From contig NZ_FOIB01000005.1 in assembly GCF_900111765.1 (NCBI RefSeq), positions 62,001 through 126,000 of the forward strand: a DNA stretch of 64,000 bases. Direction: 5' to 3'. Numbering within the stretch: position 1 is the stretch's first letter; each line of letters starts with the position of its first letter. This DNA comes from Myxococcus fulvus. GTDB lineage: Bacteria; Myxococcota; Myxococcia; Myxococcales; Myxococcaceae. Position numbers and translations under genes: made by a program. The notes under the pieces are model-generated. The model was not told the origin of the DNA. It ran no database searches and worked only from the letters and a program-made list of their open reading frames with translations. Shown here one piece after another: positions 14,043 through 23,573 of the stretch.

Positions 14043-14639
14043 CTACGGCTTGCGCGGGAAGGGGCCGCCGGGGAACGGACCGCTGGGGCTGGGGCCGTCC
14101 TCGCCCGGGAAGCCCTTGCGGATTTCAATGCGCTTCTGGATGCGCATCGTGCCCATCTCCGCCTCCACCTTGCGCCACAGCTCGGGACCCAACAGTCGCT
14201 TGATGCGGACCATCAACGACAGACGGTTCTTGCGCACCGCCGTCTCCGCGCGGCCCACCTCCTCCACCTGCTTGAGCACCGCGTTCTCATCGGTGGAGTC
14301 CGCGCGCAGCTGGCGCTCCAGTTGGAGCTGCGCGCGCTTGAGGTCCGCCTCCAGCGGGATGACGGCCTCGTTCGCGTCGAACGTCAGGTCCTGGATCTGC
14401 TTCGCCACGTCCCGGGGGATGCCCAGCTTCTCCACCACCTGCGGGGGGATGCCGTGCGCGGCGGGAGGCAGCGGGCCCAGCGGGAGCGCGCTGTCCGCGG
14501 GCCCCATGACGTGCAGCGTTCCCGGGCCTGTGCGGTGGACGACGACGTTCTCCGGTTCGGACTGGGCCTGTGCGGGCGAGGATGCGAGCAGCGGGCTCAA
14601 CGCCGCCGCGGCCAACAACATGGACGTGCGAAGCTTCAT
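14043..14639 (-). CDS. Periplasmic Spy/CnrX-like protein, third gene of a sigma/anti-sigma unit
   Basis: 198 residues: signal peptide (LLAAAALSPLLASSPAQAQ), then a four-helix, charged region (VVEKLGIPRDVAKQIQDL, KRAQLQLERQLRAD, AVRKNRLSLMVRIKRLLGPELWRKVEAEM) and a Pro/Gly-rich tail (PSPSGPFPGGPFPRKP). This resembles the heavy-metal sensor/resistance periplasmic family that contains Spy, CpxP and CnrX. Its ATG overlaps the anti-sigma stop as ATGA. It probably buffers or senses envelope stress for the sigma pathway; the ligand is unknown. Confidence 0.65.
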   Translation of the reverse strand: MKLRTSMLLAAAALSPLLASSPAQAQSEPENVVVHRTGPGTLHVMGPADSALPLGPLPPAAHGIPPQVVEKLGIPRDVAKQIQDLTFDANEAVIPLEADLKRAQLQLERQLRADSTDENAVLKQVEEVGRAETAVRKNRLSLMVRIKRLLGPELWRKVEAEMGTMRIQKRIEIRKGFPGEDGPSPSGPFPGGPFPRKP

Positions 14640-15235
14640 GGCATCGACTCCTGGTAACTGATGGGTTGAATCGCCGTTCGGAACGGCGGTGCTTCCAGCG
14701 CGCGGGAATCCGGGGGGCGCAGCCACGCGGCCATCGCCCCGAAAGGTCGGTAGAGGTCATCGCGGTACACGGCGTCTCGTCGCGTGTAGCCACGGACCTC
14801 CGTGAAGAGGTCGGACAGCGAGGCGCGGCCCCATTGCGCCAGGGCCTCCGGCTCCACCTCGGCCTCCGTGTCCGCGCGGCGCAGCTCCAGCTCGGACCGG
14901 GGGGCGGTGTCGTCGACCTGGACGTATGCGTCTTCCGACACGCGGGGCACCGGCGACTCGGACCGCGTCAGCCACGTCAGGCCGAGGAGACAGAACGACG
15001 CCACCACGCCCGCGGCCACACGGCGGCGCACCTTGCGGCGGCGCACCTCGCCCAGCACGGCCTCACGCGTCACTGGCGTCAGGGGCGGCGTCACGGGCAG
15101 CCGCAGCCGCGACGCAGAGGCATGCACGGCCGCGAGCGTCCGACAGTCCTCGCAGCCCTCCAGGTGGGCGCGCACCTCGGGAGGCCACGGGGGCGAGGAC
15201 TCCAGGAGGATGGGGGCCACGTCGTGGCATCTCAT
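14636..15235 (-). CDS. Membrane anti-sigma factor with zinc-binding N-terminus
   Basis: 199 residues. The cytoplasmic N-terminus carries HLEGCEDC, the H-x3-C-x2-C motif of ZAS anti-sigma factors, preceded by MRCHD. One transmembrane helix follows (AAGVVASFCLLGLTWL), then about 105 periplasmic residues. It overlaps both the sigma gene upstream and the Spy-like gene downstream by ATGA, so all three are made in fixed ratio. It should hold the sigma factor inactive until an envelope signal. Confidence 0.85.
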   Translation of the reverse strand: MRCHDVAPILLESSPPWPPEVRAHLEGCEDCRTLAAVHASASRLRLPVTPPLTPVTREAVLGEVRRRKVRRRVAAGVVASFCLLGLTWLTRSESPVPRVSEDAYVQVDDTAPRSELELRRADTEAEVEPEALAQWGRASLSDLFTEVRGYTRRDAVYRDDLYRPFGAMAAWLRPPDSRALEAPPFRTAIQPISYQESMP

Positions 15236-15786
15236 GGCGTTTCTCCTTCGAGGGCCCGCTCGGCCTTGAGCTTCTTGAGCGCGCGATACAGGTGGATGCG
15301 AACGGTGCCCCGCTCGATGCCCATGGCCTCCGCGACGGCGTCCAACTCGAGTCCCTCCAGGTAGCGCAGGCTGAAGGCCGTGGCCTGCTGCGACGGGAGC
15401 GCCCGCACCGCGCGGCCCAGGGCCCGCCAGCGCTCGGCGCCGACGAAGCGCTCCTCCGGTGACAGCTCCAGGGGCGTGCCCCCGTCCAATGCCTCACGCA
15501 GCACGTTCCACACGCGCCGCCTGCGCAGGTGGCTCATCGCGCGGGAGACCAGGATGCGCCGCAGCCACGCGGGCCCCGCTTGCAGCTCCTTCAAGCCGTG
15601 GCGCTTCTCGTAGGCATCAGCCAGGGTTGCCTGCACCACGTCCCTCGCCTCCTCCGCGTCCCACACCAGCCGCCGGGCCAGGCGCAGCAGCCCGGCCTGC
15701 TCCGCCTCCAGGAGCGACTCGAACGCGAGCGCGGCGGTGGCGCGCGCTGGAGTTCCGGGCTCCTCTAGGATGGCGGTACCCTTCAC
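15232..15786 (-). CDS. ECF-type RNA polymerase sigma factor
   Basis: 184 residues from GTG 15786 (AGGAGG ten bases upstream); the frame is open further upstream without coding character. Region 2 is LRLARRLVWDAEEARDVVQATLADAYEK with WLRRILVSRAMSHLRRRR; region 4 is LPSQQATAFSLRYLEGLELDAVAEAMGIERGTVRIHLYRALKKL. First gene of a three-gene unit with its anti-sigma factor. Divergent from the GNAT at 15859, so the 72-bp gap should hold its autoregulated promoter. Confidence 0.9.
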   Translation of the reverse strand: MKGTAILEEPGTPARATAALAFESLLEAEQAGLLRLARRLVWDAEEARDVVQATLADAYEKRHGLKELQAGPAWLRRILVSRAMSHLRRRRVWNVLREALDGGTPLELSPEERFVGAERWRALGRAVRALPSQQATAFSLRYLEGLELDAVAEAMGIERGTVRIHLYRALKKLKAERALEGETP

Positions 15787-15858: not shown

Positions 15859-16320
15859 GTGAGCTCCTCCGAAATCCGACGGATTCCCGCCGCGGAGACC
15901 CGTGGCCTGCGCCGCGCCGTGCTTCGCCCCCACCAGCCTCCCGAGGCCGTCGTCTATCCTGGAGATGACGACCCGGACACCTTGCACCTGGGCCTGTACT
16001 CGGAAGGCCGCCTGCTCGGGGTGGCCTCCATCTATCGGGAGCCGCCACCTTACGCCCTGAAGGCCATCACCGCGTGGCGCCTGCGAGGAATGGCCGTGGA
16101 GCACGGACGCCAGGGACAGGGGCTGGGCGCGGCCCTGTTGAAGGCGTGTATGGAGCACGCCGTGACGCAGAAGGGCACGCAGGTGTGGTGCAACGCGCGG
16201 TCGACCGCCTCGGGCTTCTATCGCTCACTGGGCTTCACCGCGCACGGAGAGCAGTTCGAGCTGCCCGGCATCGGGCCTCACCACCTGATGTCCCGTGAGC
16301 TGAGGGAGCCAGGGCGATGA
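15859..16320 (+). CDS. GNAT N-acetyltransferase
   Basis: 153 residues from a GTG start. The acetyl-CoA loop reads RLRGMAVEHGRQGQGLGAALL (motif A, Q/R-x-x-G-x-G/A) and the end has FYRSLGFTAHGEQFELPGIGPHHLM. It resembles ElaA/YitI-like small GNATs with an unknown substrate. Its stop overlaps the pheA start by 4 bp (ATGA), so it is cotranslated with the aromatic pathway genes. Confidence 0.82.
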   Translation: MSSSEIRRIPAAETRGLRRAVLRPHQPPEAVVYPGDDDPDTLHLGLYSEGRLLGVASIYREPPPYALKAITAWRLRGMAVEHGRQGQGLGAALLKACMEHAVTQKGTQVWCNARSTASGFYRSLGFTAHGEQFELPGIGPHHLMSRELREPGR

Positions 16321-17456
16321 GCACCTCGCCAGACCTGGACGCGCTGCGCACCGCCATCGAGAACCTGGACGAGGAGATTCTCGACGCGCTCCGCCGCCGC
16401 ATGGACCTGGCGGACGACGTGGCGCGCTCCAAGCTGGCCACCGCGGCGCCGTTCCGGGATCAGCGTCGCGAGGACCTGCTCCTGCGCCGCATCCGCACGC
16501 GCGCGTCCGAGCACGGGTTGGACCCGCATGAGACGGAGCGCATCTGGCGGCTGGTCATCGACATGTCGGTGGCGCGGCAGCAGGCGCTCGTCACGCGGAT
16601 GGACACGACGCCGTTGCGCGTGGGCTATCCGGGCGTCGAGGGCTCCTACAGCCACCTGGCCGCGCGCAGGCGCTACACGGGCCGCGCTGGCGGCGTGCTG
16701 CTCACGGGCTTCGATGATGCGCGCGAGGTGGTGGAGGCGGTGCGGCGCGGCGAGCAGGACCTGGCGCTGCTGCCCATCGAGAACACCACCGCCGGCAGCA
16801 TGAACGAGACGTACGATTTGCTCGCCGAGGGCGGCGTGGTCATCACCGCGGAGCTGGTGAGCCAGGTGGACCACCGGCTGCTCGGGCTGCCGGGCGCGAA
16901 GCTGGAGGGGCTCAGAGAGGTCATCTCGCATCCGCAGGCGCTGGCGCAGTGTGAGGCGTACCTGCGCGAGAAGCTGCCGTGGGTGCGGGCGGTGCCGGAC
17001 GCGGACACGGGTGGCGCGGCGCAGAAGGTGCGTGAGCGCAACGACGCCACGGTGGCCGCGATTGCCAGCGAGACGGCCGCGCAGCGCTTCGGCCTGGAGG
17101 TCCTGGCGCGCGAGCTCCAGCCGGAGTTCGACTACACGCGCTTCGTGGAGGTGGGCCGCGAGCCCACGCCGCTGGCTCCGGGCGTGCCGTGCAAGACGTC
17201 GTTGTTGATGGTGCTGGAGCACAAGCCGGGCACGCTGGGGGAGATGCTCCAGCGACTGACGCTGCGCGGGGTGAACCTGAGCAAGCTGGAGTCGCGTCCC
17301 ATTCCGGGTCGACCGTGGCAGTACCGGTTCTATGTCGACGTGGAGGGACATGCGGCCTCCGCGCCGCTGACGGCCGCGCTGGAGGACATCCGGCCGCTGA
17401 CGTCCTTCCTGCGCGTGCTGGGCACGTATGGCCGGGCCGAGGGAAGCCATGGATGA
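16317..17456 (+). CDS. pheA: Chorismate mutase / prephenate dehydratase (P-protein)
   Basis: 379 residues with the three P-protein parts in order. Chorismate mutase AroQ domain is at about 5-95 (LRTAIENLDEEILDALRRRM). The prephenate dehydratase domain is at about 100-285 (GYPGVEGSYSHLAA, LPIENTTAGSMNETYDLL and the catalytic DYTRFVEVG). A C-terminal ACT domain for phenylalanine feedback contains KLESRP. It converts chorismate through prephenate to phenylpyruvate. It overlaps a second dehydratase gene by 8 bp. Confidence 0.93.
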   Translation: MSTSPDLDALRTAIENLDEEILDALRRRMDLADDVARSKLATAAPFRDQRREDLLLRRIRTRASEHGLDPHETERIWRLVIDMSVARQQALVTRMDTTPLRVGYPGVEGSYSHLAARRRYTGRAGGVLLTGFDDAREVVEAVRRGEQDLALLPIENTTAGSMNETYDLLAEGGVVITAELVSQVDHRLLGLPGAKLEGLREVISHPQALAQCEAYLREKLPWVRAVPDADTGGAAQKVRERNDATVAAIASETAAQRFGLEVLARELQPEFDYTRFVEVGREPTPLAPGVPCKTSLLMVLEHKPGTLGEMLQRLTLRGVNLSKLESRPIPGRPWQYRFYVDVEGHAASAPLTAALEDIRPLTSFLRVLGTYGRAEGSHG

Positions 17457-18279
17457 GTTGTCAGCCTCGGAGACTCGCGTCGCGTTCCAGGGGGAGCCGG
17501 GGGCGTATGGGGAAGAGGCCCTGCGCGTGTTGTATGGACCGGACGTCGAGGCGGTCCCCTGCCCCACCTTCCGCGCCGTGTTCGAGGCAGTGGCCGAGGG
17601 CCACGTGGACAGCGGCGTGATTCCGGTGGAGAGCTCGCTGGGCGGGCCGGTGGCGGAGAACGTGGACCTGCTGCTGGAGCATGACCTGCCCATCTCCAGT
17701 GAGCTGTCGCTGCGCATCCACCACTGTCTCGTCGCGCCCCCGGGGCTCGCGCTGGAGGACGTGGAGCAGGTGCTGTCGCATCCCCAGGCGCTGGCGCAGT
17801 GCGCGGGCTATCTGCGGCGGCGCGGCCTCAGGCCCGTGCCCGAGGCGAACACCGCCATCGCGGCGCGCAGGATTTCTCGCGAGGCGCTCCCGCGCACGGC
17901 GGCCATCGCCAGCAGCCTGGCGGCGGAGCTGTATGGGCTGGTGGTGCTCGAGGATGGCGTGGAGGACTCGTCGGACAACTACACGCGCTTCGTCACACTG
18001 GGCGAGGAGCCCGAGCGCACGTGGAAGCGGCGCAAGACGGCGCTCGCCCTGACGGTGCCCAATGAGCCTGGGGCGCTGTACCGCGTGCTGGGCGCGTTCT
18101 CCGCGCGCGGGCTGGACGTGTCCCGCCTGGAGTCGCGTCCCCAGCGTCGCGCGTGGGAGTACGTCTGGTGCCTGGATGTCGAGGGGGCGCTGGAGGAGGC
18201 GCGCGTGCGAGAGGCGGTGCAGGCGGCGCAGGCCGCGTGCATCACCCTGCGCGTGCTCGGCAGCTACGGCGTGGCCTGA
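17449..18279 (+). CDS. Second prephenate dehydratase (no chorismate mutase domain)
   Basis: 276 residues: a dehydratase domain (AFQGEPGAYGEEAL, IPVESSLGGPVAENVDLLL, catalytic NYTRFVTLG) followed by an ACT domain (NEPGALYRVLGAF, RLESRP). Catalytic Thr-Arg-Phe and the ESRP regulatory motif are both kept, so it looks active and Phe-sensitive. The ATG at 17449 has GAGGGAAG upstream and starts 8 bp before the pheA stop. It may be a feedback-divergent second isoenzyme or an arogenate-type dehydratase; the sequence does not decide. Confidence 0.88.
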   Translation: MDELSASETRVAFQGEPGAYGEEALRVLYGPDVEAVPCPTFRAVFEAVAEGHVDSGVIPVESSLGGPVAENVDLLLEHDLPISSELSLRIHHCLVAPPGLALEDVEQVLSHPQALAQCAGYLRRRGLRPVPEANTAIAARRISREALPRTAAIASSLAAELYGLVVLEDGVEDSSDNYTRFVTLGEEPERTWKRRKTALALTVPNEPGALYRVLGAFSARGLDVSRLESRPQRRAWEYVWCLDVEGALEEARVREAVQAAQAACITLRVLGSYGVA

Positions 18280-18306
18280 GTCGAGCGCCACGCCGCGCGG
18301 GCGTCA

Positions 18307-19416
18307 TCAGGCCGTCAGTCCATCGCCGTTCTTCACGGCGGCCTGGTACGCCTCGCGGATGATCTGCGTGTAGCGCTGGAGCGCGCCGAGCTGCTCCATG
18401 CGCAGCGCCTGCGGACCGTCGCACAGCGCGGCCTCGGGCTGCGGGTGGAAGTCCACCAACACCATGGACGCGCCCGCGATGAGCCCCTGCCCGATCGCAT
18501 GGAAGATGTCCGGCAGGCCGTCCGGCGGCAGGTCCGCGCGGCCGATGGCGTGTGACGGGTCCACGCACACGGGCATGCGCGTCAGCCGCCGCACCACGGG
18601 CACGTGCGCGAAGTCCACCATGTTGCGGTGCGGGTCACCCAGGTGCGTCTTCACGCCGCGCAAGCAGAAGACGATCTTCGGGTTGCCCTCGCTCGCGATG
18701 TACTCGCACGCGTTGAGGGACTCCTCCAGCGTGATGCCCATGCCGCGCTTGAAGAGCACGGGGAACACGCGCTGCTGACCAATCGACTTGAGCAGCTCGA
18801 AGTTCTGCGCGTTGCGCGTGCCCACCTGGAGCATCACGCCCGTGGCGTTGCCCGACCGCTCCAGCGCGTCGCGAATCTCGTCGATGTGGCGAGGATGCGT
18901 CACCTCCATCGCCACGACCTTGATGCCGTGCTTCCCGGCGGACTCGAACACCCACGGCAGGCACGCCGCGCCCAGGCCCTGGAACTCGTACGGGTTGGTG
19001 CGGGGCTTGTACGCCCCCATGCGCGTGGTGCGGATGTCGTGGCGCGCGAGCGCCGCCATCATCGTCTCCACGTTCTCCTTCGTGTCCACCGCGCACAGGC
19101 CCGCGAACAACTGCACCGAGCGCTCATCGAACGTCACGCCGTTGTACTCGAAGCCCGTCGTCGTGCGCTGGCCCTTGTGCCGGCCGATGACGCGGTACTT
19201 CTGCGACACGCGCACCACCTGCCGCACACCCGGGATCTGCTCGAAGACCTCCGTCGGCACCTGGGCCGTGGAGCCCAGCAGGTACACCTCCGTCACCGTG
19301 AACTCCGCTCCCTCGATGACGTGAGGACGCGGCGTCACCCCCTTGTACTGGGCGGCGGCTTGGAGGACTGCGGACACCACGGACTCGGGTGAGTCCGGCT
19401 CGAGCATGACGATCAT
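18307..19416 (-). CDS. aroF: 3-deoxy-7-phosphoheptulonate (DAHP) synthase
   Basis: 369 residues of the AroA(I-beta)/B. subtilis-like class: a ferredoxin-like N-terminal regulatory domain (MIVMLEPDSPESVVSAVLQAA) and the barrel with GAYKPRTNPYEFQGLG, LLQVGTRNAQNFELL, VLFKRGMG, ICLRG-type FCLRGVKTH, VDPSHAIGR and the metal-binding DFHPQPEAALCDGPQ. It makes DAHP from PEP and erythrose-4-phosphate, the first step toward chorismate. It faces the pheA pair, ending 27 bp away. Confidence 0.92.
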   Translation of the reverse strand: MIVMLEPDSPESVVSAVLQAAAQYKGVTPRPHVIEGAEFTVTEVYLLGSTAQVPTEVFEQIPGVRQVVRVSQKYRVIGRHKGQRTTTGFEYNGVTFDERSVQLFAGLCAVDTKENVETMMAALARHDIRTTRMGAYKPRTNPYEFQGLGAACLPWVFESAGKHGIKVVAMEVTHPRHIDEIRDALERSGNATGVMLQVGTRNAQNFELLKSIGQQRVFPVLFKRGMGITLEESLNACEYIASEGNPKIVFCLRGVKTHLGDPHRNMVDFAHVPVVRRLTRMPVCVDPSHAIGRADLPPDGLPDIFHAIGQGLIAGASMVLVDFHPQPEAALCDGPQALRMEQLGALQRYTQIIREAYQAAVKNGDGLTA

Positions 19417-20350: not shown

Positions 20351-22600
20351 TCAGAGGCGCAGACCCGCCTGGACCCCGGCCCACATCAGGACGTCGCGGT
20401 CCGACGACTTGGAGAACCGGCTGAGCGCCGTCACCGGCTCGCCGTCCGTGGCGTGCAGGATGTTGAACGTGGGGCCCGCGAAGATGGCGAAGCGCGGGGC
20501 GAACGCGTAGCCCACCATCAACCGCCCCTGGTGCAGCATCCGGTTGTCCGCGAGCGCCCCGCCCCACTCGTGGATGGTGTTCGTCACCACGTCCACGTCG
20601 AAGTAGAGCCGCTCGGTCAGCGGAACGTGCCCGCCCAGGCCCACGCCCGTCGTCCAGTGGCTGGGGCCCCGGTGGTCCGGCACCGCGCCCATGCCCACCA
20701 CCAGCGTCGTGTAGAGGTAGCGGCTGCCCACCTTGAGCGCGACGTTGGCGTAGTTGAAGTCGTTGCCGTAGGCCTCCACGTGGAACTGGCCGTTGCGCAC
20801 GATGTTGAGCAGGCCCACCGGCACGCCGGATTCCAGGTTGTTCGCCACGTTGATGATGCCCAGCTGCAGGCCGTTCATCTTCCCGGCGACGTTGATCAGG
20901 CCCACCTGCGCGCCCCTCACGTCTCCGCCCACGTTGATGAGCGACAGCTGCGCGCCCTGGATGGAGTTGACGCGGCTGACGCCCACCGCCATCTGCACGC
21001 CGCGCATCGACCCGGCCACCCAGCTCAGGCCCACCGCGCCCTGGTAGCCGTCCATGTCGCCGTCCACCCAGCTGCTGCCCACCGCCATCTGCACGCCCTT
21101 CATGGACGCGCGAGACACGCTGGCGCCCACCGCGAGCTGCCCCAGGTAGCCACCCTGGCTCGCCATGTTGAGGCCCACCGCGGCCTGCAGGCCTTCCGCC
21201 CTGCCGCTGGCCCAGTTGCCGCCCACCGCGAGCTGCGCGCCCTCCATGATGTCGCGCGCCACGTTGCCGCCGAGGGCCGTCTGCACGCCGTGGATCTCCC
21301 CAGAATTCCAGTTCGCCCCCAGCGCCATCGCGAAGCCATCCAGCCGCCCCAGGGTCGCCAGGCCCAGCGAGATGGAGAGCGCGTTGTCCATCGCCTGCCC
21401 GCCGCCCCACAGGTCGTTCGTCTGGAGCTTCGGGGCCAGGCCCAGGTTGACGAAGCGGAAGTTGCCGCGCGCGGGAGCCAGGGGCTCGACCATCGGCCCC
21501 TGCGCGCCCGTCGCCACGGCGCCACCGCCACGCATCGCCGTCAGCTCGCCCTGCATCGCCACGAAGGCCGTGTGGGCCAGCACGGTGCGGCCCGCGTCGC
21601 CCACCGTGAGCACCGCCTGGGAGCTGGCGCCGCGCGACTCACGCGTCACCGTGTAGCGGCCCGGCTGCAGACCCAGCTCGGTGGAGCGGCCCGCCAGCTT
21701 GTTGAGCTCCACGACGAGGCGGCCGGGCTCGTCGCGGATGAACAGGCGCCCCTCCACGTTCTCGTCCATGACGAGCACCGCGGTGGTGGAGCGCAGGTCC
21801 GTCATCACCAGCTCGCCCGTGCCGGCCAGCTCGATGTCATAGGCCGGGTGCTGCGCGCCCGCGCGCGTGCGCTCCGTGCGCGCGAGCGTCTCGTGGAAGG
21901 CGAACTGGTAGGCCTCGTGCAGCGTGACGCGGCCATCGCCCGTGGCGTCCGCCGCGCCGCGCAGGCCCGACACCAGGTTGTGCGTGAAGAACGAGCCGCC
22001 GATGCGGTCCGACTCCTGCGACACCTCGTCCTCGGACGACGAGGTGAGGATGGCGTGGCCCCGCACGGCCGTGGACGTGTCCACCAGGAACGCGGGACGG
22101 CGCACGCCGCCCTTCGAGCGCGCCAGCGTGCCGGAGGCGCACGAGTCCAGGATGGCGATGCGCACGTCCGCGGGGAGCTGCTCCAGCGCCTGCCGCAGCT
22201 CGCGGTAGCCGAAGCGGTCCTGATGCAAGAGCAGCCCCTCCTCGTCGGAGTGGCCGGAGTAGTAGATGAGCGCCTCGGTGCGTCCGCCCGGCGTCTTGCC
22301 CGCGGCGACCATCGCCTTGAAGCGGGCCAGCGCGCTCTCCAGCGCCTTGCGGTCGCCCTCGAGCAGCAGCATCCGGTCCTGCCGCTGCACGCCGCCGAGC
22401 TCCTCCAGCACCTGGCCGAAGGCGTTCGCGTCGGTGACGGCGTAGCGCAGCTTCGCGCGGCCGGGGCCGCCGTCGTTGACGCCCACGAGCAGCGCGAACC
22501 GACGCACGGCGACGGGGTTGGAGGAAGGGGTACCGGCTGGGGCCGCCGTGGCCAGGGTGGGAAGCAACAGGGACAGGAACAGGAGTGACCGCGCCATCAC
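20351..22600 (-). CDS. Exported caspase-family (C14) protein with repeat region and C-terminal barrel
   Basis: 749 residues. Signal peptide (SLLFLSLLLPTLATAAPA), caspase-like domain about 35-245 with catalytic His117 in YYSGHSDEEG and Cys154 in LDSCASG, an Ig-like stretch about 260-345, then about ten 18-20-residue repeats at 410-605 (GVQMAVG-x-S/N, GAQLAVGGNW, LGIINVANN types), and a final barrel-like segment ending in VQAGLRL. The repeats resemble the LA_2272-type surface repeats of outer-membrane proteins. Starts at overlapping GTG 22600 or ATG 22597, coupled to the upstream gene. Likely anchored in or exposed at the outer membrane. Confidence 0.82.
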   Translation of the reverse strand: MMARSLLFLSLLLPTLATAAPAGTPSSNPVAVRRFALLVGVNDGGPGRAKLRYAVTDANAFGQVLEELGGVQRQDRMLLLEGDRKALESALARFKAMVAAGKTPGGRTEALIYYSGHSDEEGLLLHQDRFGYRELRQALEQLPADVRIAILDSCASGTLARSKGGVRRPAFLVDTSTAVRGHAILTSSSEDEVSQESDRIGGSFFTHNLVSGLRGAADATGDGRVTLHEAYQFAFHETLARTERTRAGAQHPAYDIELAGTGELVMTDLRSTTAVLVMDENVEGRLFIRDEPGRLVVELNKLAGRSTELGLQPGRYTVTRESRGASSQAVLTVGDAGRTVLAHTAFVAMQGELTAMRGGGAVATGAQGPMVEPLAPARGNFRFVNLGLAPKLQTNDLWGGGQAMDNALSISLGLATLGRLDGFAMALGANWNSGEIHGVQTALGGNVARDIMEGAQLAVGGNWASGRAEGLQAAVGLNMASQGGYLGQLAVGASVSRASMKGVQMAVGSSWVDGDMDGYQGAVGLSWVAGSMRGVQMAVGVSRVNSIQGAQLSLINVGGDVRGAQVGLINVAGKMNGLQLGIINVANNLESGVPVGLLNIVRNGQFHVEAYGNDFNYANVALKVGSRYLYTTLVVGMGAVPDHRGPSHWTTGVGLGGHVPLTERLYFDVDVVTNTIHEWGGALADNRMLHQGRLMVGYAFAPRFAIFAGPTFNILHATDGEPVTALSRFSKSSDRDVLMWAGVQAGLRL

Positions 22601-23406
22601 GGCACCTTCTCCAACGTGAAGGATGTCTGGGCCAGGGTACCCGGAAGCGGGAGCGGCCGGGTGCTCGCCTCGGTGGGCTGACGTGCGAGCTTCCGCGCGG
22701 ACTCCAGCACGAGGCCCACATCGATGGGTGAATCCGAGGTGACGAAAAAGAAGCGCTCGAAGTCGGGGGCGTCGTCGAGCTCGTACGCGTGCGCCAGCGA
22801 CACCGCGTCCCCCTTCTGCAGCCGGGTGCTGCCCACCAGCGTGGTGGGGTGGTGGAGCGTCACCGCGCCCCGGCCATCCACGGACACCACCGTCCCGTAG
22901 CGCCGCCCGCCGGCGAGGTAGCTCAGCTGGAGCAGGTCACCGCGCCGGGCGCGAGTGCGGTCCGCGAGCAGCTCCGTGGAGCCGTCGTGCTGCCGGTACA
23001 CCAAGAGCCGCGCGTCACCCTTGATGCCGACCGTCTCCTCCATCAGCTCGACCCGCGCGGGCATCAGCGCCGGGGGCTCGGCCACCCGCTCCGGCTGGGC
23101 CGACAGCATGAGCAGCACCAGCGACGCCGCCACGGGCAACCCCATGGACAGCCCATGCCAGCCCGGGTAGCGCGCCGCGTGCTCGCGCTGGACGTCCGCG
23201 GTGCGCGCGCGGCGGGCGACCTCCCGGGCGAAGTCCTCGGGGGGATGGCGGGCCAGCGTCTGGGCCGAGTCCGCCTCCAGCCGCGCCAGCCGGGCCCTCC
23301 CGTGAGGCTCGCGCTCCAGCCGGGCGCGAGCGTCGGCGAGCGCGTCCGGGGACAGCTCGCCCAGGGCAATCCGCTCCAGCAGCCAGTCAGGGGTGCACAG
23401 GGCCAT
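22597..23406 (-). CDS. Single-pass membrane protein, anti-sigma-like partner of the caspase
   Basis: 269 residues: an N-terminal cytoplasmic helical part (WLLERIALGELSPDALADARARLEREP) like anti-sigma leaders, one transmembrane helix (LPVAASLVLLMLSAQP), and a periplasmic domain of the DUF4384 kind (RRGDLLQLSYLAGGRRYGTVVS, FFFVTSD) common beside bacterial caspases. No zinc-binding H-x3-C-x2-C is seen. Its stop overlaps the caspase start. No sigma-factor gene is adjacent, which is unusual. A GTG at 23412 is an alternative start. Confidence 0.65.
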   Translation of the reverse strand: MALCTPDWLLERIALGELSPDALADARARLEREPHGRARLARLEADSAQTLARHPPEDFAREVARRARTADVQREHAARYPGWHGLSMGLPVAASLVLLMLSAQPERVAEPPALMPARVELMEETVGIKGDARLLVYRQHDGSTELLADRTRARRGDLLQLSYLAGGRRYGTVVSVDGRGAVTLHHPTTLVGSTRLQKGDAVSLAHAYELDDAPDFERFFFVTSDSPIDVGLVLESARKLARQPTEASTRPLPLPGTLAQTSFTLEKVP

Positions 23407-23573
23407 GCTCACGAAGCCTCCAGCGCGGTCCACAAGCCCCATCTCCAGGCCTCCGCCGCGCCCTCCGCCCACTGGAACACCACCCTGCCCTGGAACTGTC
23501 ACCTGCTCGTGAGGACACGCCCCGACGTCGACTGGCGCAGGTGCGCGGATGTAGGCCCCCGCCCGGACGAGGG

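Follow-up and report, generated by a model that had tools for sequence, protein, structure and literature searches.

The partner-caspase gene pair of the window, by which we mean the whole 64,000-nucleotide stretch of Myxococcus fulvus DNA analysed here, appears to belong to an envelope-signalling circuit that is widely conserved. Judged by sequence comparison, the sigma factor of this circuit has been relocated, not lost, and we read the window pair as that half of a duplicated operon which no longer has the sigma. The best explanation of its function, to which we give an even chance of being right, is that an envelope-tethered caspase cleaves the anti-sigma factor and in this way controls a trans-acting sigma factor. 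Support is strong for the regulatory architecture; fold and topology are predictions, and the cleavage, the trans control, the signal and the direction of control are inferences.

The coordinates of the two genes were confirmed and the caspase gene is intact (Table 1). The stop of the partner gene overlaps the start of the caspase gene in the sequence TGATG, thus their translation is probably coupled. We looked for a sigma gene next to the pair and found none, and the 167-bp gap upstream of the partner contains the promoter motif but is too short for a sigma remnant. The same arrangement is seen throughout the genus, where the partner is present in 27 of 27 genomes and the sigma is absent from this locus in all of them. 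The cognate ECF sigma is encoded at a second locus (C1:111902). In 26 of the genus genomes this locus combines the sigma (91–100% identical) with a paralogous partner and, in 26/26, a caspase-less barrel protein of about 200 aa. Among the genus genomes, only in G011 was the sigma undetected; this genome is assembled in 820 contigs, and the second partner is missing from it too. The missing sigma of the preliminary description is therefore missing in cis only: it is found at the second locus, its promoter motif is kept, and outgroups have it within the operon.

Table 1. Features of the partner-caspase operon (positions are those of the window).
Feature	Position	Strand	Basis or remark
Promoter-like motif GGTGACA-N15-GGTGTT	23476..23503	-	69 bp before partner ATG
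Partner, anti-sigma-like membrane protein, 269 aa	22597..23406	-	In 27/27 genus genomes
Partner residues 1-79, four-helix, cytoplasmic, anti-sigma-domain-like	23170..23406	-	AlphaFold pLDDT mostly 90+; weak NCBIfam matches
Partner transmembrane segment, ~residues 86-103	23098..23151	-	Sequence; predicted helix 92-102
Partner linker motif G-I-K129-G130 (family: R-x-K-G), predicted scissile/pseudosubstrate site	23017..23028	-	Homologue conservation
Partner predicted periplasmic beta-sandwich, residues 130-269, DUF4384-like	22600..23019	-	AlphaFold pLDDT ~95
Caspase-repeat-barrel protein, 748 aa	20351..22597	-	ORF, profiles, alignment, AlphaFold
Signal peptide, ~residues 1-19	22541..22597	-	Sequence: MARSLLFLSLLLPTLATA-AP
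Caspase (C14) domain, ~residues 29-265	21803..22513	-	Pfam 1.5e-11; Yca1 structural match
Catalytic His116 codon	22250..22252	-	Invariant, 31 homologues
Catalytic Cys153 codon	22139..22141	-	Invariant, 31 homologues
R160-S-K162-G-G loop after catalytic Cys, candidate self-processing site	22106..22120	-	RxKG in 82/83 homologues
Beta repeats, residues 380-594, period 16 then 14	20816..21460	-	NCBIfam, alignment, AlphaFold
Predicted C-terminal 8-stranded outer-membrane barrel, residues 600-748	20354..20800	-	VIA matches on predicted model

Nine outgroup genomes from the family and order have sigma, partner and caspase in a single operon, and in the outgroup genome G033 the full operon sits at the same syntenic place, with the epimerase upstream and the TPR gene downstream. 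In the partner tree the two loci fall into distinct clades that both include outgroup members, which indicates that they are old duplicates. Citreicoccus has two copies, one of the window type that lacks the sigma (L205) and one of the other clade that is complete (L250), the combination expected of an intermediate of duplication and loss. We suggest an old duplication, then loss of the sigma in one copy, then loss of the caspase in the other; such reciprocal losses amount to a clean natural split of a regulatory circuit. Archangium lansinium (L210) and Paraliomyxa (L268) likewise have partner-caspase operons that lack a sigma and carry the motif shortly before the partner, perhaps through independent sigma losses. 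In Anaeromyxobacter-like genomes, a repeat-barrel gene that encodes no caspase stands directly upstream of the sigma (L058 2203-3285 and L059 1736-2818), hence the caspase-less barrel may be an ancient component of the system.

The window operon and the relocated sigma have the motif GGTRACA-N15-GGTGTT in common in their upstream regions. Among the genus genomes the motif is exact at 25 of 27 window loci and 21 of 26 sigma loci, the remaining five sigma loci having one mismatch; all non-exact loci differ by one mismatch except L034, whose start is mis-called. Shuffled upstream regions gave no exact motif in 2650. The outgroup operons also carry the motif. Exact motifs occur in 30 of 35 genomes with the sigma and in two of 26 without a detected sigma (61 genomes), one of the two being the fragmented G011. 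Across phyla, Fibrobacter included, the motif precedes the first gene of the operon at 46 of 80 loci, or 52 if one mismatch is allowed, against none in the control. As this conserved promoter motif has been kept at the window operon, the relocated sigma is expected to drive that operon in trans.

Pattern searches for the candidate regulon in the same M. fulvus genome returned 12 matches with the spaced motif, ten of them with N15, against none for the reversed control. The ten N15 matches lie 29-133 bp before gene starts, all ahead of envelope genes. The candidate targets are the sigma operon, the window operon and an operon of exbB, exbD, tonB, a receptor, a lipoprotein and a second caspase; a repeat-barrel gene without a caspase and an exported DUF4833 protein; and lipoproteins that are beta-lactamase-fold, subtilisin-like, DUF2807 (two) and cytochrome-peroxidase-like. 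Many of these recur in five other genus genomes, G002, G009, G012, G013 and G017, and some of them in G033 and G034. At L112 (4784-10508) and L013 (4640-6778), exbB, exbD and tonB stand in an operon with a lipoprotein, a second caspase-barrel protein and a receptor whose N-terminus bears a TonB_C domain, and exbB/exbD-type genes lie beside the sigma-caspase operon in G034, G058 and G060.

The caspase protein, 748 aa when counted from the ATG at 22597, was initially described as a C14 protease with an intact His/Cys pair, and profile search bears this out. Residues 32-222 match Peptidase_C14 in Pfam at 1.5e-11 (44.9 bits, cut-off 21.4), and the His-Cys dyad is invariant in 31 homologues of 40-93% identity. 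The dyad is H116 and C153, earlier given as His117/Cys154 because numbering from a GTG start adds 1. Also invariant in this alignment are D56, S114 and D151, which in a profile alignment to metacaspases are the counterparts of Asp95, Ser156 and Asp211, the S1 pocket residues of TbMCA2 (PMC4357240). By residue conservation, the protein has the acidic S1 pocket of the Arg/Lys-specific metacaspases, which cut after Arg/Lys, self-processing sites included (PMC8455989). In the AlphaFold model, which was built from 31 sequences, residues 29-156 match the yeast metacaspase Yca1 (VIA Z 14.8 over 120 residues); past residue 154 the pLDDT of the caspase domain is mostly <50 and its second half is unresolved.

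The signal peptide that had been noted is classical and visible in the sequence. The repeats, of which about ten of 18-20 residues had been proposed, are real, but have a period of 16 and then 14 residues, with conserved Gly at 421, 437, 453, 469, 501, 517 and 533, then at 548, 562 and 576. They match the LA_2272 repeat NF047436 of NCBIfam above its cut-off (27.9 versus 25 bits) and the VC2662 repeat below its cut-off. The C-terminal half of the protein is modelled with pLDDT mostly 80-95, and its barrel-like end, also foreseen in the preliminary description, has structural counterparts: on the predicted model, residues 600-748 match OprF with Z 14.1 (rmsd 3.2 over 124), OmpA with Z 13.7 and NspA with Z 13.6 (VIA), as befits an OmpA-like 8-stranded outer-membrane barrel. 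OmpA-type barrels have both chain ends on the periplasmic side. Given a predicted barrel of this kind at the C-terminus, with no autotransporter helix, the caspase N-terminal to it would face the periplasm. Thus the caspase is probably tethered in the envelope by the outer-membrane barrel and located in the periplasm.

The partner is predicted by AlphaFold to consist of an N-terminal helical domain, one transmembrane helix and an extracytoplasmic beta-sandwich, which is the architecture of an anti-sigma factor and agrees with the anti-sigma-like leader and single helix proposed at the outset. The DUF4384-like domain proposed with them fared less well: DUF4384 (PF14326) was undetected in the window copy with Pfam, and among 28 homologues it was matched in six, the best being the paralogue L018 at 1.8e-5, below the cut-off (25.2 versus 27 bits). 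The window partner has no Pfam match at all, and no curated anti-sigma or zf-HC2 profile scores above its cut-off; there is a weak NCBIfam anti-sigma match (6e-4, 19.9 bits versus a cut-off of 100), and the paralogue L017 just passes the zf-HC2 cut-off. Foldseek and VIA returned weak Ig-like sandwich matches only (best Z 8.9), with no informative relative. Our claim, based on sequence and model, is that the partner works like an anti-sigma factor, and not that its membership of such a family is proven.

The periplasmic linker of the partner is variable, and disordered in the model, except for an R-x-K-G motif just before the sandwich. Among 79 non-redundant partner homologues, the Lys is conserved in 76, the Gly in 78 and the Arg at -2 in 65; the window partner has Gly in place of this Arg. 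In this genome, ten further membrane proteins of the zf-HC2 type were compared, and none has R-x-K-G at that place. The caspase carries the motif too, nearly always as R-x-K-G-G, 7-11 residues past the catalytic Cys in 82 of 83 distinct homologues, and this loop follows the catalytic Cys where caspases carry their processed inter-subunit linker. On the simplest interpretation, the caspase would cut both itself and the anti-sigma factor after the Lys of R-x-K-G. However, K-G may be kept for structural reasons, as the point where the partner beta-sandwich begins. The anti-sigma proteins of two more distant operons of this genome (L020 and L021) keep K-G although their caspases lack the Asp at Cys-2.

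In the mechanism that we propose, the exported caspase would be held in the outer membrane by its C-terminal barrel, facing the periplasm, and the partner would be an anti-sigma factor in the inner membrane, its DUF4384-like domain lying in the periplasm. The ECF sigma from C1:111902 would drive the window operon in trans via GGTRACA-N15-GGTGTT, in addition to an envelope-gene regulon. A change at the outer membrane would activate the caspase, which would then most likely cut at R-x-K-G both in its own chain and in the partner, there behind the conserved Lys of the linker. The cut in the partner would start breakdown of the anti-sigma factor and so release the sigma, as DegS does for RseA. What points to site-1 cleavage of the anti-sigma as in DegS/RseA is the conserved R-x-K-G linker site. 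The fuller proposal, that the outer-membrane-anchored caspase makes the site-1 cut in an ECF sigma pathway, cleaving the anti-sigma across the periplasm between Lys and Gly of R-x-K-G, and that it represents a cross-phylum class of caspases controlling transcription, not cell death, here split over two loci sharing one sigma, is offered tentatively and has somewhat less than an even chance.

It could instead be that the caspase is an output of the regulon only, induced by the sigma in envelope stress and degrading periplasmic or damaged outer-membrane proteins, while the partner inhibits the sigma, the caspase or both without being a substrate. The promoter motif does mark the caspase operon as a target, and the subtilisin-like, cytochrome-peroxidase-like and beta-lactamase-fold lipoproteins of the candidate regulon fit a general envelope response. 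However, the overlap of the partner and caspase genes, the frequency with which the partner accompanies the caspase among the best loci (see below) and the presence of R-x-K-G in both proteins suggest a direct link, and we regard an output-only role as rather unlikely. In another alternative, the partner motif could be a pseudosubstrate or docking peptide by which the anti-sigma factor keeps the caspase inactive across the periplasm, until sigma release or outer-membrane damage frees the protease. The motif shared by the caspase loop and partner linker would suit such an arrangement, as would the direct DUF4384-caspase fusions known elsewhere (PMC6426788), but the linker is disordered in the model, and we judge this improbable.

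The preliminary description suggested a surface-displayed protease involved in kin contact, predation or defence, which would be exported in the manner of an autotransporter. The order of signal peptide, protease, beta repeats and C-terminal barrel is superficially like type V secretion, and "surface" is part of the name NCBIfam gives to the repeats. Against this, no autotransporter beta-domain was matched in Pfam, a lack that alone does not exclude one, and the predicted barrel is 8-stranded with no helix before it, making activity at the cell surface unlikely. In addition, the domain of the partner is predicted to be periplasmic, and sister caspases have other C-terminal barrels and are without such repeats. 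Nothing that we found points to contact killing, which leaves the proposed role unsupported and surface display highly improbable.

Asplund-Samuelsson et al. (2012; PMC3501461) reported that, of five metacaspases in M. xanthus, four are encoded in one operon with a sigma factor, and recorded sigma-metacaspase operons in other Deltaproteobacteria such as Anaeromyxobacter, Haliangium and Sorangium, and in Ralstonia and Fibrobacter. The window locus is a derivative of these myxobacterial sigma-70/metacaspase operons. In the part of the paper considered here, they are described without mention of a barrel in the outer membrane, of the middle gene as an anti-sigma factor, of a split copy lacking the sigma, or of a promoter or regulon. 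This kind of operon, joining sigma and caspase, is thus not new and dates from 2012 in the literature; the outer-membrane tether, the split locus, the cross-phylum promoter, the regulon and the candidate cleavage site appear to be new against the literature searched. Our literature search on the barrel-caspase family or LA_2272/VC2662 repeats found no work, and the NCBIfam models of LA_2272/VC2662 surface-repeat proteins share the NF047436 repeat but have no caspase domain.

Like DegS-RseA-RpoE of E. coli, the system would combine a periplasmic protease, a single-span anti-sigma factor, an ECF sigma and an envelope regulon, but DegS is an inner-membrane HtrA protease, whereas the protease here would be an outer-membrane-tethered caspase and its cleavage is a proposal. 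There is experimental precedent for a caspase-fold protease acting on a sigma inhibitor: Csx29 cleaves Csx30, an inhibitor of an ECF-like sigma (PMC10028731). This type III-E CRISPR system (Csx29-Csx30-CASP-sigma) is similar in its caspase-fold protease, sigma-inhibitor substrate and positive autoregulation (PMC10028731). Csx29, however, is cytoplasmic, RNA-activated and of the CHAT family, and the likeness of the partner to Csx30 drawn here is one of proposed role. FecI-FecR-FecA likewise joins an outer-membrane barrel protein to an inner-membrane anti-sigma and an ECF sigma, and the exbB-exbD-tonB genes and TonB-dependent receptor of the candidate regulon add a FecA-like touch. The barrel protein here is a protease fusion rather than a TonB-dependent receptor; Pfam detects no TonB-dependent receptor or plug domain in it, in contrast to a FecA-type transducer.

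The role of bacterial caspase homologues is a long-standing question, usually framed in terms of cell death. Genomic evidence now links a large exported caspase family to a sigma factor, a promoter motif and a candidate envelope regulon, and the naming of one candidate scissile bond makes function addressable by mutants and peptides in Myxococcus. If our reading is true, caspases that govern transcription rather than cell death would make up an envelope-signalling class extending across phyla.

A search for the repeat-caspase fusion in other myxobacteria had been advised in the preliminary description. Our scan of one genome per species (84,980 species) recovered full-length relatives in Myxococcota, Fibrobacter, Spirochaetes, Fermentibacteria and others. 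Among the 80 best loci, sigma and partner are both upstream in 50 and the partner is found in 70. Two of the loci encountered, L199 and L222, are Myxococcus-type and stand in records titled 'Comamonas sp. KCTC 72670', a title that looks mislabelled. The M. fulvus genome itself has seven other operons of sigma, anti-sigma-like protein and caspase: L016-L019 and the more distant L020-L022. The caspases of L016-L019 have other C-terminal beta-rich or barrel ends and no repeats of the window type; those of L020 (2998-5944; C6:411789) and L021 (3068-6083; C2:1203865) are lipoprotein-like with barrel-like ends. A ninth Peptidase_C14 locus lies at C1:246999-247433.

The window has another ECF sigma gene (15232-15786), which we rejected as the cognate sigma because it has its own zf-HC2-like anti-sigma and because G033 has both this sigma and the cognate one. 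It belongs to a separate operon (14043-15786, minus strand) with that anti-sigma and a small exported protein, and a counterpart of this operon lies near the caspase operon in G033 (L053 326-2042). Between it and the caspase pair, the window at 16317-19416 holds what we take, by eye, to be an aromatic amino acid cluster, with a chorismate mutase/prephenate dehydratase, a second prephenate dehydratase and a DAHP synthase-like gene.
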